A stretch of 64,000 bases of DNA from an uncultured Desulfobacterales bacterium (GTDB taxonomy: Bacteria > Desulfobacterota > Desulfobacteria > Desulfobacterales > JAHEIW01), in NCBI GenBank assembly GCA_947259495.1, contig CAMYLV010000030.1, forward strand, positions 1-64,000, read 5' to 3'. Below are positions 6,927-61,877 of the stretch, piece after piece; the first letter of the stretch is position 1; each line of letters starts with the position of its first letter. The notes below the pieces were generated by a model. It saw nothing but the letters and a program-made list of their open reading frames with translations. It had not been told where the DNA came from and ran no database searches. A program made the position numbers and the translations under genes.

Positions 6927-7595
6927 ATGAATAAGGAAGCCATTAAATATGAACGCCAACGGGACGAAATGGTCAGGCACCAGATCAAATCTCGTGGAAT
7001 AAAAGACCCCAACGTTGTGGCGGCGCTTCGCACCATACCCAGGCATCTATTTGTCAGTGAAGCTTTAAGAGATCAGGCTTACGGGGATTACCCGCTTCCC
7101 ATCGGTGAACAGCAAACCATTTCCCAGCCTTACATTGTTGCGGAAATGACGCAGGCTTTAGACCTTCACAAAGACGACCGCGTTCTGGAAATTGGGACCG
7201 GTTCGGGATACCAGGCGGCAGTTTTAGCGGAGATCGTATTCCGGGTTTACACGATCGAGAGAATCCGAGCGCTCTATATCCAGGCCCGCAATCTTCTCGA
7301 TAAGCTGCATTATCACAACATCGTTATGCGGTGCACTGACGGCACGGCGGGATGGCAGGCTGAAAGTCCATTTGACGCCATCATTGTGACCGCCGGTGCG
7401 CCGGAGGTTCCTGCAAAACTACTCGATCAGCTGGCTGAAGGAGGACGCATGATCGTGCCGGTGGGCAACCAACACTCCCAGGATCTGATCAAAATTATCA
7501 AAGATAAACGGGGAGTTCATAAATCCAATCTGGGGGGATGCCGATTTGTCAAACTTATCGGGGCGCAGGGCTGGAAGGAAAAAAGAACGGATTGA
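6927..7595 (+). CDS. pcm: Protein-L-isoaspartate O-methyltransferase
   Basis: The enzyme uses S-adenosylmethionine to methylate L-isoaspartyl residues and so starts repair of aged proteins. Visible motifs are 'PRHLFV' (residue 32 onward), 'GEQQTISQPYIVA', the SAM-binding loop 'EIGTGSGYQAAVLAEI' and the later strand 'FDAIIVTAGAPEVP'. Length (222 residues) is usual. The ATG at 6927 is the first possible start because an in-frame stop lies just upstream; no good ribosome site precedes it, and an internal ATG at 6969 ('MVRHQIKSRGI') is a possible alternative. The DUF368 gene starts four bases after the stop, so the two are probably co-transcribed. Confidence 0.93.
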   Translation: MNKEAIKYERQRDEMVRHQIKSRGIKDPNVVAALRTIPRHLFVSEALRDQAYGDYPLPIGEQQTISQPYIVAEMTQALDLHKDDRVLEIGTGSGYQAAVLAEIVFRVYTIERIRALYIQARNLLDKLHYHNIVMRCTDGTAGWQAESPFDAIIVTAGAPEVPAKLLDQLAEGGRMIVPVGNQHSQDLIKIIKDKRGVHKSNLGGCRFVKLIGAQGWKEKRTD

Positions 7596-11207: not shown

Positions 11208-11256
11208 AACTTCTTTCCCTTTTAAAACAAGAAGTTTACAATTTATATTTGAAAAG

Positions 11257-11402
11257 TAAAACCTATCTCAAAAATAGTGGATAAGGGTTCAGGGCAAGGC
11301 GTACCGCGGATTGAAAACGGAGCGCCACGTAGTACGTGAGTATTTCAATTCGTGGTAGAACGCAGCCCTGGAGTCTTAGACGCATTTTTGAGATAGGTTT
11401 TA
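11257..11402. repeat. Nested palindromic repeat with 19-bp terminal inverted repeats; supplies the ntrX stop codon
   Basis: Perfect 19-base terminal arms (TAAAACCTATCTCAAAAAT at 11257-11275; its complement at 11384-11402) enclose further nested arms: CAGGGC...GCCCTG, GATTGAAA...TTTCAATT-like, and a central CACGTAGTACGTG. The right arm contains the stop codon of ntrX (11400-11402). A shorter relative with the same terminal arm lies at 61662-61727. There is no coding capacity. The structure fits a miniature inverted-repeat element or a REP-type sequence. Confidence 0.85.
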
Positions 11403-12758
11403 GTTGAGGCTTTTGATTTTCTTGTGCAAATAACTCCTCCCCACCTTCAGCGCCTTAGCGGTTTTTGTAATATTGTTCTCATTTTGGACCAATTTTACTT
11501 TTATAAATTCCTTTTCAAACGCTTTGCGCGCTTCTTTGAAATTGTCTAATTTCATAAATGGTGCCGAAGCCGCATACGATGGGTTGGTTAAACCACCGGG
11601 ACGATATGAATCCGGTATTTCCGTCACATCAATGACATCTTTATCAACCATGATAGCCAGCCGTTCAACCAGGTTACGCAACTCCCTGACGTTTCCGGGC
11701 CAGGCATAATTGCTCAAAATGCTGATCGCCGCGGGACTCATCATTTTACGCTTGCTGCGATTCTGAACAGCAAACTCGACTAAAAAGGCCTCGACCAATA
11801 GTGGAAGATCCTCGATTCGCTCTCTTAAAGGTGGAACATTAATGGGAATCACATTCAAACGATAATAGAGATCCTCTCGAAATGTCGCCTTTTCGATTTC
11901 TTTTTCCAGGTTTTTGTTGGAGGTAGCAATCACCCTTACATCAATGCCAATCTGTCGGCTTCCGCCCACCCGCTGGATCTTTTGTTCCTGCAGAACCCGC
12001 AGTATTTTGGCCTGAGAGCTTAAGCTCATATCTCCAATTTCATCCAGAAATATGGTGCCGTTATTGGCCAGCTCAAACTTGCCTTTTTTTTTGGCGGTTG
12101 CACCGGGAAATGAGCCTTTTTCGTGTCCGAACATTTCACTTTCCAAGAGTTCGTCCCGGATAGCCGCACAGCTGACATCAATCAGCGGCTGCTCGGCCCG
12201 CGGGCTGAGTTGGTGGATGGTGCGCGCCACCAGTTCTTTGCCAGTGCCGTTTTCTCCGCTAATCAGTATCCAGGTGTCCGTCGGCGCTGCGACGTCAATA
12301 TTTTTTCTTAAAACCTTTGTCCTTTCAGATTCTCCGTCAATGGAATGTTTTTCCAGCGTCTTGGTACGAAGATATTTATTTTCTTCTTCCAGGCGCTTAA
12401 AATTTAACGCATTGTTTATGGTTAAAATTATCTTATCAATGGAAAGCGGCTTTTCAACCAGATCAAAGGCGCCTAGCTTGGTGGCTTTAACCGCTGTTTC
12501 GATCGTCCCGTGGCCGGTGATGATAACGACCTGAATTTGGGAATTGTATTTTTTAATTTCCTTTAGCGTTTCAATTCCATCCATTCCCGGCATCCAGATA
12601 TCGAGCAAAACCAGGTCCGGTGATTCTGATTCAATGGCTTTTAGCGCCTCATAACCGTTGACGGCTGTTGAAACCTCAAAGCCCTCATCAGAAAGCAAAC
12701 CGCTCAAAGATTGAACAATCGACTGTTCATCATCAACAATCAACACTGATGCTAGCAT
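11400..12758 (-). CDS. ntrX: NtrX/AtoC-type sigma-54-dependent response regulator with altered GAFTGA motif
   Basis: The 452-residue protein has a receiver domain (residues 1-120, phosphoacceptor in 'DLVLLDIWMPGMDG'), a central AAA+ domain (about 145-375: Walker A 'GENGTGKELVART', Walker B region 'GTIFLDEIGDMS') and a C-terminal Fis-type DNA-binding helix pair ('NITKTAKALKVGRSYLHKKI'). It pairs with the NtrY-like sensor upstream. The loop that contacts sigma-54, normally GAFTGA, reads G-S-F-P-G-A (12099-12116, Pro218). The Thr of this motif is known to be critical for sigma-54 contact in PspF/NtrC, so the protein may not activate sigma-54 in the usual way. Its stop codon lies inside a palindromic repeat. 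Confidence 0.9.
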   Translation of the reverse strand: MLASVLIVDDEQSIVQSLSGLLSDEGFEVSTAVNGYEALKAIESESPDLVLLDIWMPGMDGIETLKEIKKYNSQIQVVIITGHGTIETAVKATKLGAFDLVEKPLSIDKIILTINNALNFKRLEEENKYLRTKTLEKHSIDGESERTKVLRKNIDVAAPTDTWILISGENGTGKELVARTIHQLSPRAEQPLIDVSCAAIRDELLESEMFGHEKGSFPGATAKKKGKFELANNGTIFLDEIGDMSLSSQAKILRVLQEQKIQRVGGSRQIGIDVRVIATSNKNLEKEIEKATFREDLYYRLNVIPINVPPLRERIEDLPLLVEAFLVEFAVQNRSKRKMMSPAAISILSNYAWPGNVRELRNLVERLAIMVDKDVIDVTEIPDSYRPGGLTNPSYAASAPFMKLDNFKEARKAFEKEFIKVKLVQNENNITKTAKALKVGRSYLHKKIKSLN

Positions 12759-15860: not shown

Positions 15861-15930
15861 CATTACTTCGGTTGCAAGATTTAGGTATTTCCTTAACTTC
15901 GCATTAATTTTTATGCAAGATTTAGGTATT
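15861..15930. repeat. Two tandem copies of the 'TGCAAGATTTAGGTATT' repeat
   Basis: Two related 28-29 base copies (15861-15888 and 15902-15930) share the core TGCAAGATTTAGGTAT. They are diverged members of the dispersed family seen at 21147-21222, 25023-25067, 25215-25277 and 48364-48390 (core CATTAATTTTCATGCAAG). They occupy part of the 385-bp gap between the divergent DUF4390 and comM genes. No gene is seen in the rest of the gap. Confidence 0.65.
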
Positions 15931-16129
15931 AAATAGCTGAAACCTATTTAAATAGCAAGTGATTTTGACCACCACCGCGGCGTGTTGTGCGCATCGGCCT
16001 GTGTCTGCAGGGGAACAACTGAGTGGTCAACAAAAAGATTGTCGCCGACAGTTGGAAGTGCTATAGCTCTCAGCAGTCTGCGGTTGGCCTTTGGGCCAGC
16101 CCGGTTAACCCAAGCCAGGGAGAAGGCTG

Positions 16130-19468: not shown

Positions 19469-19506
19469 TCATTACGTCGGAACGTTATTATGGAAAGCGG
19501 TGAAAC
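19469..19506 (+). repeat. Partial copy of the modular repeat (shared module only), upstream of aceB
   Basis: The sequence at 19477-19506 matches the end of the elements at 34726-34827 and 55258-55363: core GGAACNTTATTATGGAAA followed by GCGGT. Only the shared module is present; neither the hairpin module nor the AT-rich module follows. It ends about 18 bp before the aceB ribosome site and could lie in the aceB leader. Confidence 0.65.
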
Positions 19507-19540
19507 ACCCAGATGACGCTGAAAAGGAGGGATATTGACC

Positions 19541-21139: not shown

Positions 21140-21146
21140 TCATTGA

Positions 21147-21222
21147 CCTGAATTATGCATGAAAATAGATGAGAATATTTTACTTAATATGTAAATCGGA
21201 ATATTAATATGGAAAACAGTAC
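21147..21222 (-). repeat. Full AT-rich form of the modular repeat, between aceB and aceA
   Basis: On the minus strand this reads module 1 (TTTCCATATTAATATTCCGA) followed by TTTACATATTAAGTAAAA, TATTCTCAT, ATTTTCATGCA and ATTCAGG. It is nearly identical over about 60 bases to 25215-25277. It fills most of the 101-bp aceB-aceA gap and ends just before the aceA ribosome site, as the copy before aceB does. Confidence 0.75.
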
Positions 21223-25022: not shown

Positions 25023-25067
25023 TATGCCGCTTTCCACATTAATTTTCATGCAAGATTCAGGTTATAC
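25023..25067 (+). repeat. Hybrid copy of the modular repeat
   Basis: CCGCTTTCCA, the start of the shared module, is joined directly to CATTAATTTTCATGCAAG and ATTCAGGTTATAC, the end of the AT-rich form. The middle part is missing. The last 30 bases repeat exactly at 25248-25277, in the same direction. Confidence 0.7.
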
Positions 25068-25077
25068 CTGGATTTTG

Positions 25078-25180
25078 CACGAGTTGGAGGCTTTCATATG
25101 CAAGGCACTTAAGGGCGAAGCTATAGTATACTATGCTTCGCCCTTAATAACGCAGCAGATGGAAGGCTCCAGCTCGCCCA
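25078..25180. repeat. Nested palindrome with a near-perfect 39-base core
   Basis: The core at 25109-25147 pairs TTAAGGGCGAAG with CTTCGCCCTTAA around an ATAGTATACTAT centre. Outer arms GAGTTGGAGGCTT and AAGGCTCCAGCTC extend the structure to about 100 bases. It lies between the two direct copies of the AT-rich repeat. There is no coding capacity. Confidence 0.8.
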
Positions 25181-25214
25181 TAGGGTGAGATTAGATGAGA
25201 AATAAAAAAGATTA

Positions 25215-25277
25215 TTATCCGATTTACACAATAAGTAAAATATTCTCATTAATTTTCATGCAAGATTCAGGTTATAC
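25215..25277 (+). repeat. AT-rich form of the modular repeat upstream of the universal stress protein gene
   Basis: The sequence runs from TCCGATTTACA through AAGTAAAATATTCTCATT to TTTCATGCAAGATTCAGG and TTATAC. It matches the inverted copy at 21147-21222 over about 60 bases. It lies about 60 bp upstream of the usp start, so it may be in the promoter or leader. The remaining 24992-25339 gap holds only this and the two preceding repeats. Confidence 0.75.
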
Positions 25278-25339
25278 TTGGCACCTCCGATCCAAATCGT
25301 CAATTGGAAATTCTATAAGCGGTATAAAGGACGCCAGTC

Positions 25340-33889: not shown

Positions 33890-33990
33890 TATACCGCTTG
33901 TCATAATAATGTTCCGAAAAAAATGATGGCGGCATAAGTGTTGTAGAAAAAAAACGTCCCGCAATCGGAACGTTTTTTTGACAACCACTA
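33890..33990 (+). repeat. Modular repeat, hairpin form (copy A), between convergent genes
   Basis: Module 1 (TATACCGCTTGTCATAATAA then TGTTCCGA) is followed by GGCATAAGTG and a palindrome at 33937-33989: AGTGTTGTAGAAAAAAAACG paired with CGTTTTTTTGACAACCACT around CCCGCAATCGG. The A-run, stem and T-run read as an intrinsic terminator on both strands. It is about 95 percent identical by eye to copy D at 59227-59328. It separates the hypothetical gene from the convergent B3/B4 gene. Confidence 0.85.
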
Positions 33991-34030
33991 TAAAAACCAC
34001 GAAGAACACGAAGAACATAAAGAAAGACAA

Positions 34031-34684: not shown

Positions 34685-34725
34685 GGCCTTTGCCCTCGCT
34701 GGTGAATTGCCTTTTTTCAGTGTAT

Positions 34726-34827
34726 AGGGGTTGTCAAAAAAACGTCCGGTATACAACCGTTTTTTCTACAACCCCTTATGCCGCACTTCCGTATTCCGGA
34801 ACATTATTATGGAAAACGGTATAAAAC
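34726..34827 (-). repeat. Modular repeat, hairpin form (copy B), between potC and the B3/B4 gene
   Basis: On the minus strand it reads module 1 (ATACCGTTTTCCATAATAAT then GTTCCG), then GGCATAAGGGG and the palindrome with AAAAAACGG...ACGTTTTTTTGACAACCCC. It lies between potC and the B3/B4 gene, both on the minus strand, where its hairpin could end potABCD transcription. It points opposite to copy A on the other side of the B3/B4 gene. Confidence 0.8.
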
Positions 34828-42131: not shown

Positions 42132-42195
42132 CTATCTGTCGTCTGTCCTCTGTTTTCTGATCTCTGCTCTCTGACCTCTGTCATCTGCCCTCTAC
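42132..42195. repeat. Low-complexity CTCTGNNCT-type tract between livK and livH
   Basis: The tract consists of imperfect short repeats of a pyrimidine-rich unit (for example CTGTCCTCTGTTTTCTGATC and CTCTGACCTCTGTCATCTGC). Its complement resembles the purine-rich tract inside the hybrid kinase gene at 51966-52056 (ACAGAGGACAGAAAACAG type). The rest of the 41938-42262 gap has no other gene or element besides the hairpin. Confidence 0.65.
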
Positions 42196-48213: not shown

Positions 48214-48363
48214 GGCAAAATCCCTCAAAAAGCAGGCTAGTTTTTAGTCAGACTATAATCAACTTGTAATGATTATTGCAATAAATTATATGAAGACTTA
48301 CCATTATGGCCAAATAACTAATTTTTGCACGCGTCCTCCAGGGGCGGACAAGTCGGAGGTTTT

Positions 48364-48390
48364 CATATTCTCATTAATTTTCATGCAAGA
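48364..48390 (+). repeat. Truncated copy of the AT-rich repeat upstream of the hybrid kinase
   Basis: The bases CATATTCTCATTAATTTTCA then TGCAAGA match the middle of the copies at 21147-21222 and 25215-25277. The end (AAGAGG) seems to form the ribosome site of the kinase gene, six bases before its ATG. Confidence 0.6.
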
Positions 48391-51300: not shown

Positions 51301-52883
51301 GCGGTCTCAAAGCCCTGGTGGTTGACGATAACGCAACGTCCAGAGAAATTTTAAAAGATATGCTCGAATCCTTTACCTTCGAGGTCACCGTGGCCGCATC
51401 CGGACCGGAGGGCATCACCGAGCTGGAAAACGCACAGAAAGACCAACCTTTCGAGCTGGTGGTCATGGACTGGAAGATGCCCGGGATGGACGGCATCGAG
51501 GCCGCCCGGCGAATCAAAAGTCACCCCGGATTAGCCAAAATCCCACCCATTATCCTGGTCACCGCCTACGGTCGCGAAGAGCTGATGCAACGGGCCGAAC
51601 AGGTGGGACTGGACGGTTTTCTGCTCAAGCCGGTCAGCCCGTCGTTGCTGTTTGACGCCAGCATGCAGGCCTTTGGCCAGGCCGTACCCGAGGAATCAAG
51701 GGTTGGCCGAAAAGGGCAAAAAAAAGCCGAGGTATTGAAACACATCCAGGGCGCGCACGTGCTGCTGGTGGAAGACAACGAAATCAACCAGCAGGTGGCC
51801 AGAGAAATTCTTGAAGGCGCCGGTCTCATCGTCAGTCTGGCCAACAACGGCCAGGAAGCCGTCGATGCAATAAAGGAAAATGAATATGATGCCGTGCTCA
51901 TGGATGTCCAGATGCCGGTAATGGACGGGTACACCGCCACTCGCAAAATACGTGAATGGGAGCTGGAAAACAGAGGACAGAAAACAGAGAACAGAAAACA
52001 GAAAATGGAGGACAGAAAAGAAGGTTCGGCCCTCAGCCCTCAGTCCTCAGCACTACCCATTATCGCCATGACGGCGCATGCCATGGCCGGCGATGCGGAA
52101 AAAAGTATAGCAGCCGGCATGAGCGACCATGTCACCAAACCGATCGACCCCAACCAGCTGTTTGGCACCCTCCAAAAATGGATCCAGCCGGATAAAAAGC
52201 GTGTCACTGTCGAGCAGCAAAGGGAACCCGGCGCTGCAGAATCCCTGGCAGAGACAGTGCCCGCAGGGGAGGGATTACCCGAATCCCTGCCCGGTTTTGA
52301 CCTGGAAGACGGCCTCAAACGCTTGCAGGGAAACGAAAAATTGTATCGTAAGCTGCTGCTGGATTTTGGTGTCAAATATGCAGACACAGCCGACGAAATC
52401 CGCCAGGCGCTGGAGGCTAAAGATCTTGAGCAGGCCCACAGCCTGGTTCACGATCTCAAAGGGCTGGCCGGAAGCCTGGCGGCCACAGATCTACAGACGG
52501 CGGCCGTCGAATTGGAAAGGCTGGTAAAAGGCGGTCTCCAGAAGGGATTCTCCAAAGAGAAGCTGAATCAGACTTTCGCTGAACTGGAAAATGCGCTGCC
52601 CGCGGCGCTCGAGTCGGTCCGGGCTCTGGGTACACCGGTTTCTGAAAAACCCGCCAAACCGCCTGCCGCAGCGCTGGCGGAAATACCCTCTGAACTGGCC
52701 AGGCAAGCCGCCGATCGTATTCGCGATGCGGCCGAAATGGGCGATGTCACCCGCATCAAATCGATTGCCGAAGAATTCAGATCCAAATCCGAGGCCTTTG
52801 CACCGATCGCTGATCGCTTCATTCAAATGGCCTCAGATTTCGATTTTGACGGGGTTTTAAGGATAGCAGACGAATTGAATTAA
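48399..52883 (+). CDS. Hybrid sensor histidine kinase (Cache-like sensor, 2 PAS, HisKA, HATPase, 2 receivers, Hpt)
   Basis: A 1494-residue membrane phosphorelay protein. Hydrophobic spans lie at about 4-20, 32-53, 76-98 and 411-434; between the last two is a large periplasmic region with Cache-like features. A short coiled coil (436-465) leads to PAS domains at about 465-585 and 595-715. HisKA has phospho-accepting His733 ('[16 protein letters not shown]'); the ATPase motifs include '[14 protein letters not shown]' and '[14 protein letters not shown]'. Receiver 1 has Asp1024 ('[12 protein letters not shown]'), receiver 2 Asp1169 ('[12 protein letters not shown]'), and the Hpt has His1351 ('[10 protein letters not shown]'). 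Receiver 2 holds a roughly 30-residue low-complexity insert (from residue 1190). Its output partner is not nearby. The ribosome site lies in a repeat fragment. Confidence 0.9.
51966..52056 (+). repeat. In-frame low-complexity insertion in receiver domain 2 of the hybrid kinase
   Basis: A purine-rich tract of the ACAGAGGACAGAAAACAG type, followed by a CCTCAGYCCTCAG part, encodes a Lys/Asn/Gln/Arg-rich stretch ('[20 protein letters not shown]') then '[10 protein letters not shown]'. It interrupts the receiver fold between the '[11 protein letters not shown]' helix and the '[12 protein letters not shown]' strand. It resembles the intergenic tract at 42132-42195 on the opposite strand. Confidence 0.8.
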
Positions 52884-55237: not shown

Positions 55238-55257
55238 TTACACCTCCTGTGGTTTTA

Positions 55258-55363
55258 AAGTGGTTGTCAAAAAAACGTCCGGTTATTCCAACGTTTTTTT
55301 CTACAACCACTTATGCCCCGATTCCGTGAATCGGAACACTATTATGGAAAGCGGTATAAAACC
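55258..55363 (-). repeat. Modular repeat, hairpin form (copy C), upstream of norB
   Basis: On the minus strand module 1 (TATACCGCTTTCCATAATAG then TGTTCCGA) leads into GGAATCGGGGCATAAGTG and the palindrome with AAAAAAACG...ACGTTTTTTTGACAACCAC. It lies between lutC and norB, both on the minus strand, so its hairpin could stop lut transcription before norB. It also separates norB from the FNR-like site. Confidence 0.85.
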
Positions 55364-58073: not shown

Positions 58074-58364
58074 ATATTTTTTTTAACCGCAGACGCCCGC
58101 AGACTTACGCGGATCTTTTGTTCGGCCGACATTGTCCGAACAAAAATTTCAATCGCTTCGCGATAGCATAATATAGCATCAGGGGTGCTTATGCCCTCAT
58201 ACAATAAATTCATTACTTCACCGCAGCTAAAATTATGCAAACAAATCTAAAGTAGCACCTTTAATTTTGCCCGAAGGACGTGCAAGGTTTCCTCCCGACA
58301 GGTCGTCGGGAGGAAAAAAACTGTCTGCGAACGTCTGCGTGTGTCTGCGGTTAATATAAAAAAT
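58074..58364. repeat. Large inverted-repeat element filling the lutA-lutB gap
   Basis: Arms of about 32 bases (58074-58105; 58332-58364) contain AACCGCAGAC and GCAGAC units facing inwards; on the right GTCTGCGG followed by TTAATATAAAAAAT mirrors the left. Inside are two perfect hairpins: TTTTGTTCGG...CCGAACAAAA (58116-58145) and CCTCCCGAC-AGGTC-GTCGGGAGG (58291-58313). The element runs from three bases after the lutB start to two bases before the lutA stop codon, so it occupies the whole gap. Confidence 0.75.
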
Positions 58365-59226: not shown

Positions 59227-59328
59227 TTATACCGTTTGTCATAATCATGTTCCGAAAAAAGGATGGCGGCATAAGTGTTGTAGTAAAAAAACGTCCCGCA
59301 ATCGGAACGTTTTTTTGACAACCACTTT
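59227..59328 (+). repeat. Modular repeat, hairpin form (copy D), between lutA and the GGDEF gene
   Basis: It reads TTATACCGTTTGTCATAATC then ATGTTCCGA, GGCATAAGTG and the palindrome GTAGTAAAAAAACGTCCCGC with ATCGGAACGTTTTTTTGACA and ACCACTT. It is nearly identical to copy A at 33890-33990. With copy C it brackets the lut operon. It lies in the 373-bp divergent gap, where no other element is clear. Confidence 0.85.
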
Positions 59329-59468
59329 AAATGTGAACGCTACAATGAACCGCTAAAAAAATCCAGCGCAAAATCTCATCGGAAAAAACAGGACAACGAT
59401 CTTCAATATGACCTGAAAGGCTTGCGCTAAAAATTATTTCTGATAAGATATTGCGAGCTTAGGAGATT

Positions 59469-61629: not shown

Positions 61630-61661
61630 GTTGCCTCCAAAATGTGTTCCTAGCGAAAAGT

Positions 61662-61727
61662 TATCTCAAAAATCGTAGATCTCACCCCTCGCTTGAAAGC
61701 GGGGGCGTTAGATGCATTTTTGAGATA
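61662..61727. repeat. Short relative of the TATCTCAAAAAT element
   Basis: Perfect 12-base arms TATCTCAAAAAT (61662-61673) and ATTTTTGAGATA (61716-61727) enclose an inner hairpin CCCCTCGCTT-GAA-AGCGGGGG. The arms match the ends of the 146-bp element at 11257-11402, but the interior is different and shorter. It lies in the 248-bp gap between the DoxX gene and lgt. Confidence 0.75.
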
Positions 61728-61877
61728 TCTTCTAGTATTCCACACCTCAGGAATATTTCAACTAAAAATTGAGTCCATCAATTCTTTACCAATCGATTCA
61801 AGGTGATACTTTGACATTAAAAAATATATACCATATTATGGCCAGATATGAAGGAAAGGAGCCGCAGACCACTATAG

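Follow-up and report, generated by a model that had tools for sequence, protein, structure and literature searches.

The dispersed repeats of the window, by which is meant the whole stretch of 64,000 nucleotides of DNA that was analysed, are with high probability explained by two families of elements, referred to here as F1 and F2, of which the first is derived from IS630, and whose copies have become nested and have undergone deletions. On the basis of its terminal sequences, which match those of an IS630-family element, F1 is a MITE of the IS630 type. F2 is a second MITE-type family, which is unrelated to F1 and is flanked by 5-bp AT-rich target duplications. In the earlier note on this DNA, the repeats were interpreted as one module recombining with two different second modules. 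This interpretation is not borne out, as the four fusions in this genome are joined at different bases and two independent families are sufficient to account for them.

Copies of F1 and F2 in the window and in related genomes

F1 is an element of about 100 bp in which a sequence referred to as module 1 is followed by a hairpin, and four full copies of it (copies A to D), which are 97-99 bp in length and without a transposase gene, are present in the window (Table 1). The sharing of module 1 and a hairpin by the repeats at 33890, 34726, 55258 and 59227, which had been described earlier, is confirmed, as these are the four full F1 copies, two of them on the minus strand. The module 1 sequence given for them is also present, except that TTGTCATAAT and not TTTCCATAAT is found in those at 33890 and 59227. 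The ends of F2 read CCTGAATYTTGCAYG. A solitary module 1, a short F2 and a pair of degraded F2 ends are further elements which were not included in the earlier list.

Table 1. Positions of F1, F2 and their remnants in the window
Feature	Position	Strand	Remarks
Two degraded F2 ends in tandem	15861-15936	+	
Solitary F1 left end (module 1), no hairpin	19472-19509 (about)	-	24/27 bases to left end of L276
Remnant of long F2 (AT-rich block)	21146-21200	-	Inverted-repeat pair with 25218-25272, 89%
F1 left end (module 1) fused to F2 remnant	21196-21222	-	22/27 bases to left end of L276; best of 500 shuffles 18
F1 left-end remnant TATGCCGCTTTCCA	25023-25036	+	Stretch missing from G003 and G004
End of first, truncated F2 copy	25037-25061	+	
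Long F2 element, 205 bp	25067-25271	+	Target duplication TTATA at 25062-25066 and 25272-25276
F1 copy A	33892-33990	+	TA at 33890-33891 and 33991-33992; base-resolved empty site in G005
F1 copy B	34725-34821	-	TA at 34723-34724 and 34822-34823
Short F2	48318-48390	+	Ends 8 bases before ATG of a 1494-aa open frame
F1 copy C	55258-55356	-	TA at 55256-55257 and 55357-55358
F1 copy D	59230-59327	+	TA at 59228-59229 and 59328-59329

A profile constructed from copies A to D detects all four of them again in the window (E-values of 7e-32 to 3e-34), but as this result is circular, the independent evidence for F1 is provided by the genome-wide count of a pattern. The 16-base pattern of the hairpin arm (GTTGTAGNAAAAAACG) has 120 matches in the 4.44-Mb genome of the window (G000), nested F1 copies being counted twice by it, versus 0 for the reversed control, and a chance origin of the repeats is ruled out by this difference. 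The search for A-type copies of F1 gave 29 rows at an identity of at least 92%, one of them partial, and since most of the A-type copies carry one extra A relative to the arm pattern, the true number of F1 copies is probably above 120. Across six genomes of the family, the arm pattern has 51 further matches in G005 and a single one in each of G003 and G004, with none in G001 and G002. G003 gives also one match of the reversed control, and it holds many A-type copies despite its single arm-pattern match. A scan of contigs for F1 found at least 55 stretches, and all of those listed come from MAGs named Desulfobacterales, Desulfobacteraceae or Deltaproteobacteria. Window positions 25038-25280, which cover the long F2, have several matches in G003, G004 and G005, and the long F2 is also matched in part (query 7038-7227) in G002, which belongs to a different genus of the family and where the F1 arm pattern is not found.

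Other repeats are also present in the window. A third repeat of about 150 bp at 11254-11405, with the inverted ends AAAACCTATCTCAAAAAT ... ATTTTTGAGATAGGTTTT and a shorter related copy at 61656-61740, looks from these features like another small MITE-like element. In addition, there are a 46-base inverted repeat (of the TTAACCGCAGACG... type), whose arms at 58077-58122 and 58315-58360 lie 192 bases apart, and a pair of CTGT-rich low-complexity repeats in opposite orientation at 42135-42171 and 51966-52002.

Element ends, target sites and candidate transposases

The parentage of F1 is indicated by the ends of IS630-family elements. A search for transposases over 291 genomes of the order gave 11 that matched, and in three of these the transposase frame is open over 342-343 aa (L262, L263 and L264). 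The last 30 bases of copy A agree with the right ends of these three loci at 29, 26 and 28 positions, respectively, and when the three flanking bases (TAA) are included, the agreement is 32, 28 and 31 of 33, for which the best of 200 shuffles reached 21-22. In L262, the matching right end includes the stop codon of the transposase. The transposase of L264 is assigned to IS630 by NCBIfam (NF033545, 213.7 bits) and to DDE_3 by Pfam, and both ends of this insertion sequence were located; for L262 and L263, the left end was sought and not found. At another locus, L276 in G005, the left end of F1 is joined to the 3' end of a transposase and an IS630 right end, and it reads as a deletion derivative of IS630 of the kind expected of a deletion intermediate. 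Module 1 of copies A, B, C and D agrees with the left end of L276 at 24, 26, 26 and 23 of 27 bases, whereas the best of 500 shuffles gave 17-18. From the end matches to L262-L264 and L276 it follows that module 1 corresponds to the left end of the insertion sequence, and the hairpin to its right end together with an inverted copy of itself. G005 also contains two DDE_3 (IS630) copies, which are truncated, score above the cut-off and have F1-like ends. No IS630 transposase (PF13358/DDE_3) was found in G000 at E<=0.001, and none in G003 and G004.

The retrieved loci together contain 141 distinct full F1 copies, of which 115 are flanked by TA at both ends, the commonest target being TTTAAA; TA is missing from one or both sides in the other 26, some of which are nested, truncated or mis-bounded. 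The Correia or NEMIS elements of Neisseria are likewise TA-flanked MITEs, and their ends presumably resemble the right end of F1, in a different host. If copy A is removed together with one TA, the junction with the orthologous sequence of G005 is free of gaps (82.5% identity over 120 bp, with one gap elsewhere); the empty-site evidence for this copy is from G005, its site being not alignable in G003 and G004. The F1 copy in L092 similarly splits a long F2, which stays intact on contig C46 (a single locus, represented by both L039 and L050) and in G005 (L203), and after the removal of one TA the comparison is again gap-free, at 93.75% with the C46 copy and 90.8% with L203. Copy B is missing at the orthologous place in G003, G004 and G005, with the junction not aligned to the base. 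Since copy A is lacking in the gap of G005 and copy B in those of all three relatives, neither of them is conserved at its site.

These observations also bear on the explanation that the hairpin is retained as a transcription terminator or an RNA element, and that its spread is secondary. The folding energies of copies A to D (z of -3.3 to -6.6 versus shuffles) and the T-run closing the stem are in accordance with this. However, Rfam matched 0 families in the window at the gathering score, the gaps between predicted open frames in which the four copies lie are of the convergent, tandem and divergent kinds, and copies A and B are, as indicated above, not conserved in relatives, due to which this explanation is considered very unlikely. 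Another class of repeats with a high copy number, a hairpin and a location between open frames is the REP or REPIN-type palindrome moved by a Y1 (RAYT) transposase, and genes for Y1_Tnp are indeed present in 4/4 genomes of the genus, with three of them in G000. Nevertheless, F1 or F2 sequence occurs within about 1.5 kb at 0/3 Y1 loci of G000, and F1 is near only 2/16 such loci of the relatives, both in the F1-rich G005. With F1 having the ends of IS630 and TA at its flanks, it is extremely unlikely that the repeats are of this type. The Y1_Tnp (RAYT-like) genes of G000 (L213, L217 and L221) are open frames of 279-338 aa with no F1 or F2 nearby. There are also reports of insertion sequences that use REP palindromes as targets (PMC1525189).

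The evidence for the mobility of F2 comes from its flanks. All 60 candidate pairs of F2 ends were kept in this analysis, plainly spurious ones included, and 7 of them share all five flanking bases versus 1.3 expected on re-pairing, while 15 share four of the five versus 8.1 expected, so that at least four bases are shared in 22/60 pairs versus about 9.4 expected. A target duplication of 4-5 bp is a property of the IS1380 family. In G003, a transposase of this family (L230; NF033539, 187.1 bits with a cut-off of 180) is flanked by the two places of this locus that score best for the F2 end, at 20/29 and 18/29 (next best 17), although the match is partly circular because resemblance to F2 was what served to locate these ends. 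The flanks at L230, TATTA and TATCA, agree at 4/5 bases. Judged by these sequences, a transposase of the IS1380 family is the most likely agent of F2 movement, but this assignment is weaker than the one of F1 to IS630. No IS1380 transposase (PF13701) was found in G000 at E<=0.001.

The proposal that these repeats constitute a mobilisable intergenic family is thus upheld for F1 by its terminal repeats, its TA flanks, the empty site in a relative and the parent-like IS630 transposases in relatives.

Fusions of F1 with F2 and F1 copies nested within F1

Four fusions of F1 and F2 were read in G000 (those at 21147 and 25023 of the window, L041 and L291), and they have four different junctions. At 21147-21222, on the minus strand, module 1 is followed by the AT-rich block, and the first 14 bases of module 1 (13/14 matching), at 25023-25036, adjoin the end of this block, both in agreement with what had been described. 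However, ATTATTATCCGATTTACA at 25215, which had been read as a module 1 end, belongs to the native interior of the long F2, and close versions of it are present in L032 and at the 21147 site of a relative. Further, F1 sits within F2 at L092, a piece of F2 lies within the left end of F1 (at CCATAATA) in L291, and in L060 an F1 follows immediately after an F2. The junctions of the four fusions differ, and the apparent swaps can be explained by the insertion of two families near or into each other, followed by deletions.

The site of the 21147 fusion illustrates this. In G004, this site retains a 248-bp F2 with degraded ends; in G003 (L206) only ACCTGAATTCAGG is left, which equals both F2 ends fused and is apparently the scar of a near-complete loss of F2; and in G000 a part of F2 is fused to the left end of F1. 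Most simply, these represent one old insertion with three fates. For the region at 25023, the whole stretch is missing from G003 and G004.

If the chimera of an F1 left end and an F2 end were itself mobile, then true module swapping would be creating new transposons, and its copies would have a fixed junction. The order of F1 left end and then F2 right end is indeed common to three of the fusions in G000 (21147, 25023 and L041), and both outer ends of the chimera are ends of transposons. However, these three junctions differ from each other, and that of L291 is different again. In a search of four genomes with the 21147 chimera, in which 40 candidates were scored in each, only one other place was covered to more than 90%, viz. 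L256, and its match is at shuffle level, while the local history described above, with an F2 in G004 and fused F2 ends in G003, is sufficient to explain the 21147 sequence. A shared junction, which the earlier note had proposed to look for, is absent among the retrieved loci, to which this comparison extended; as far as these loci extend, this refutes a modular element, whereas the mobility of each family is supported, and it is very improbable that the chimera is mobile. The locus L256 (G003:C347:25710-25784) is a remnant of F2, followed directly downstream by an open frame that starts with MYKQFFRLKENPF, and it covers most of the 21147 chimera (>90%) at 76%. It is rejected as a fifth fusion, as its module 1 part agrees at 14/27 bases, a value reached by 68% of 500 shuffles (profile E of 1.3), and overlaps the start of the open frame.

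F1 copies are also nested within one another. Twelve such copies were read in G000 (L282-L287, L289, L290, L292-L294 and L108), 11 of them via a junction pattern with 13 matches, two of which are coincidental targets, and L108 in addition; L113 is a truncated case. Each nested copy lies in the hairpin loop of another F1 copy, where its position hardly varies, and in 10/12 of them the inner copy belongs to one sub-lineage, while the outer copies are of several types. The left junction has native loop bases (TG or TT) and no TA in 12/12 nested copies, and the right junction has TA in 11/12, a pattern that a simple TA-duplicating insertion would not produce. The outer right end is lost at L114/L285 and L294. 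In the retrieved loci, the diagnostic motif of the inner sub-lineage (GTT[CT]CGAAATACAG[AT]AGTGC) occurs in 11/11 contexts either nested or with an extra F1 end. For the 10 doubles with this inner sub-lineage, likewise from the retrieved loci, the mean similarity is 0.955 for the inner and 0.863 for the outer copies, and the two are uncorrelated (Mantel r -0.13, p 0.72). Amplification of the doubles as one unit is, on its own, not in accordance with this result, although for the pairs L105/L292 and L290/L293 such an amplification is possible. A tentative suggestion, which we consider considerably less probable than not, is that one sub-lineage of F1 has become a loop resident of its own family, spreading by entry into one and the same point of the loop (AACGTTTG^AATAYCG) in further members of F1 instead of into ordinary genomic TA sites. 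Two routes are possible for this, viz. repeated insertion that is directed at the loop and does not duplicate TA, and gene conversion between copies. This sub-lineage represents a concrete and testable oddity concerning the spread of an element within its own family.

Relation to known elements and proposed history

The BOX elements of pneumococcus (which has BOX/RUP/SPRITE clusters) are built of A, B and C modules, whereas F1 and F2 are two separate families. The closest known element that was found is RUP of pneumococcus, an intergenic repeat of 107 bp which is described as present in about 108-110 copies per genome, with ends like those of IS630-Spn1, a TA target and a predicted RNA fold; IS630-Spn1 has been proposed as the element that moves it, and small pneumococcal repeats which have inserted into each other are described as well (PMC2229807, PMC3049150). 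To the extent of these descriptions, RUP resembles F1 in its near-equal size, intergenic location, IS630-type ends and TA target. F1 is set apart from it, by description, in its different host, in the long hairpin formed by the inverted copy of its right end and in its nested doubles, and also in that no IS630 transposase was found in its host genome G000. The earlier statement that no family of this structure has been described is therefore correct only in part, as an IS630-type MITE of similar size and the insertion of repeats into repeats are on record. Literature searches on MITEs of Desulfobacter, on MITEs that are chimeric, nested or of the IS1380 type, and on self-insertion brought up nothing closer than RUP.

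Based on these results, F1 would have been derived from an insertion sequence of the IS630 family (Tc1/mariner-like) through internal deletion, and, being non-autonomous, it would have relied on an IS630 transposase acting in trans, which placed it into TA sites and preferentially into TTTAAA. F2, an unrelated miniature transposon, would most likely have been moved by a transposase of the IS1380 family. Copies of the two families would then have landed beside or inside one another, and the subsequent loss of the intervening DNA, for which we infer slippage or microhomology, would have produced the apparent module swaps. As neither an IS630 nor an IS1380 transposase was found in G000, both families are probably immobile here at present, and it is from the relatives that we infer the mobilising enzymes, viz. 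that F1 and F2 were presumably moved by parent-like transposases of these relatives.

F1 and F2 are thus two new families of MITEs, an already known type of element, from a lineage that had not been studied, and for one of them the parent is clear. For F1, an IS630 lineage as the parent, an intermediate stage of deletion and an empty site are all available, so that the path from an insertion sequence to a MITE is traceable in this case. A repeat of unknown nature and modular appearance is in this way resolved into two identifiable element families in uncultured bacteria of the Desulfobacterales type, and in the host, a marine bacterium resembling sulfate reducers, the repeat modules are explained by the ends of two tiny mobile elements that carry no genes.
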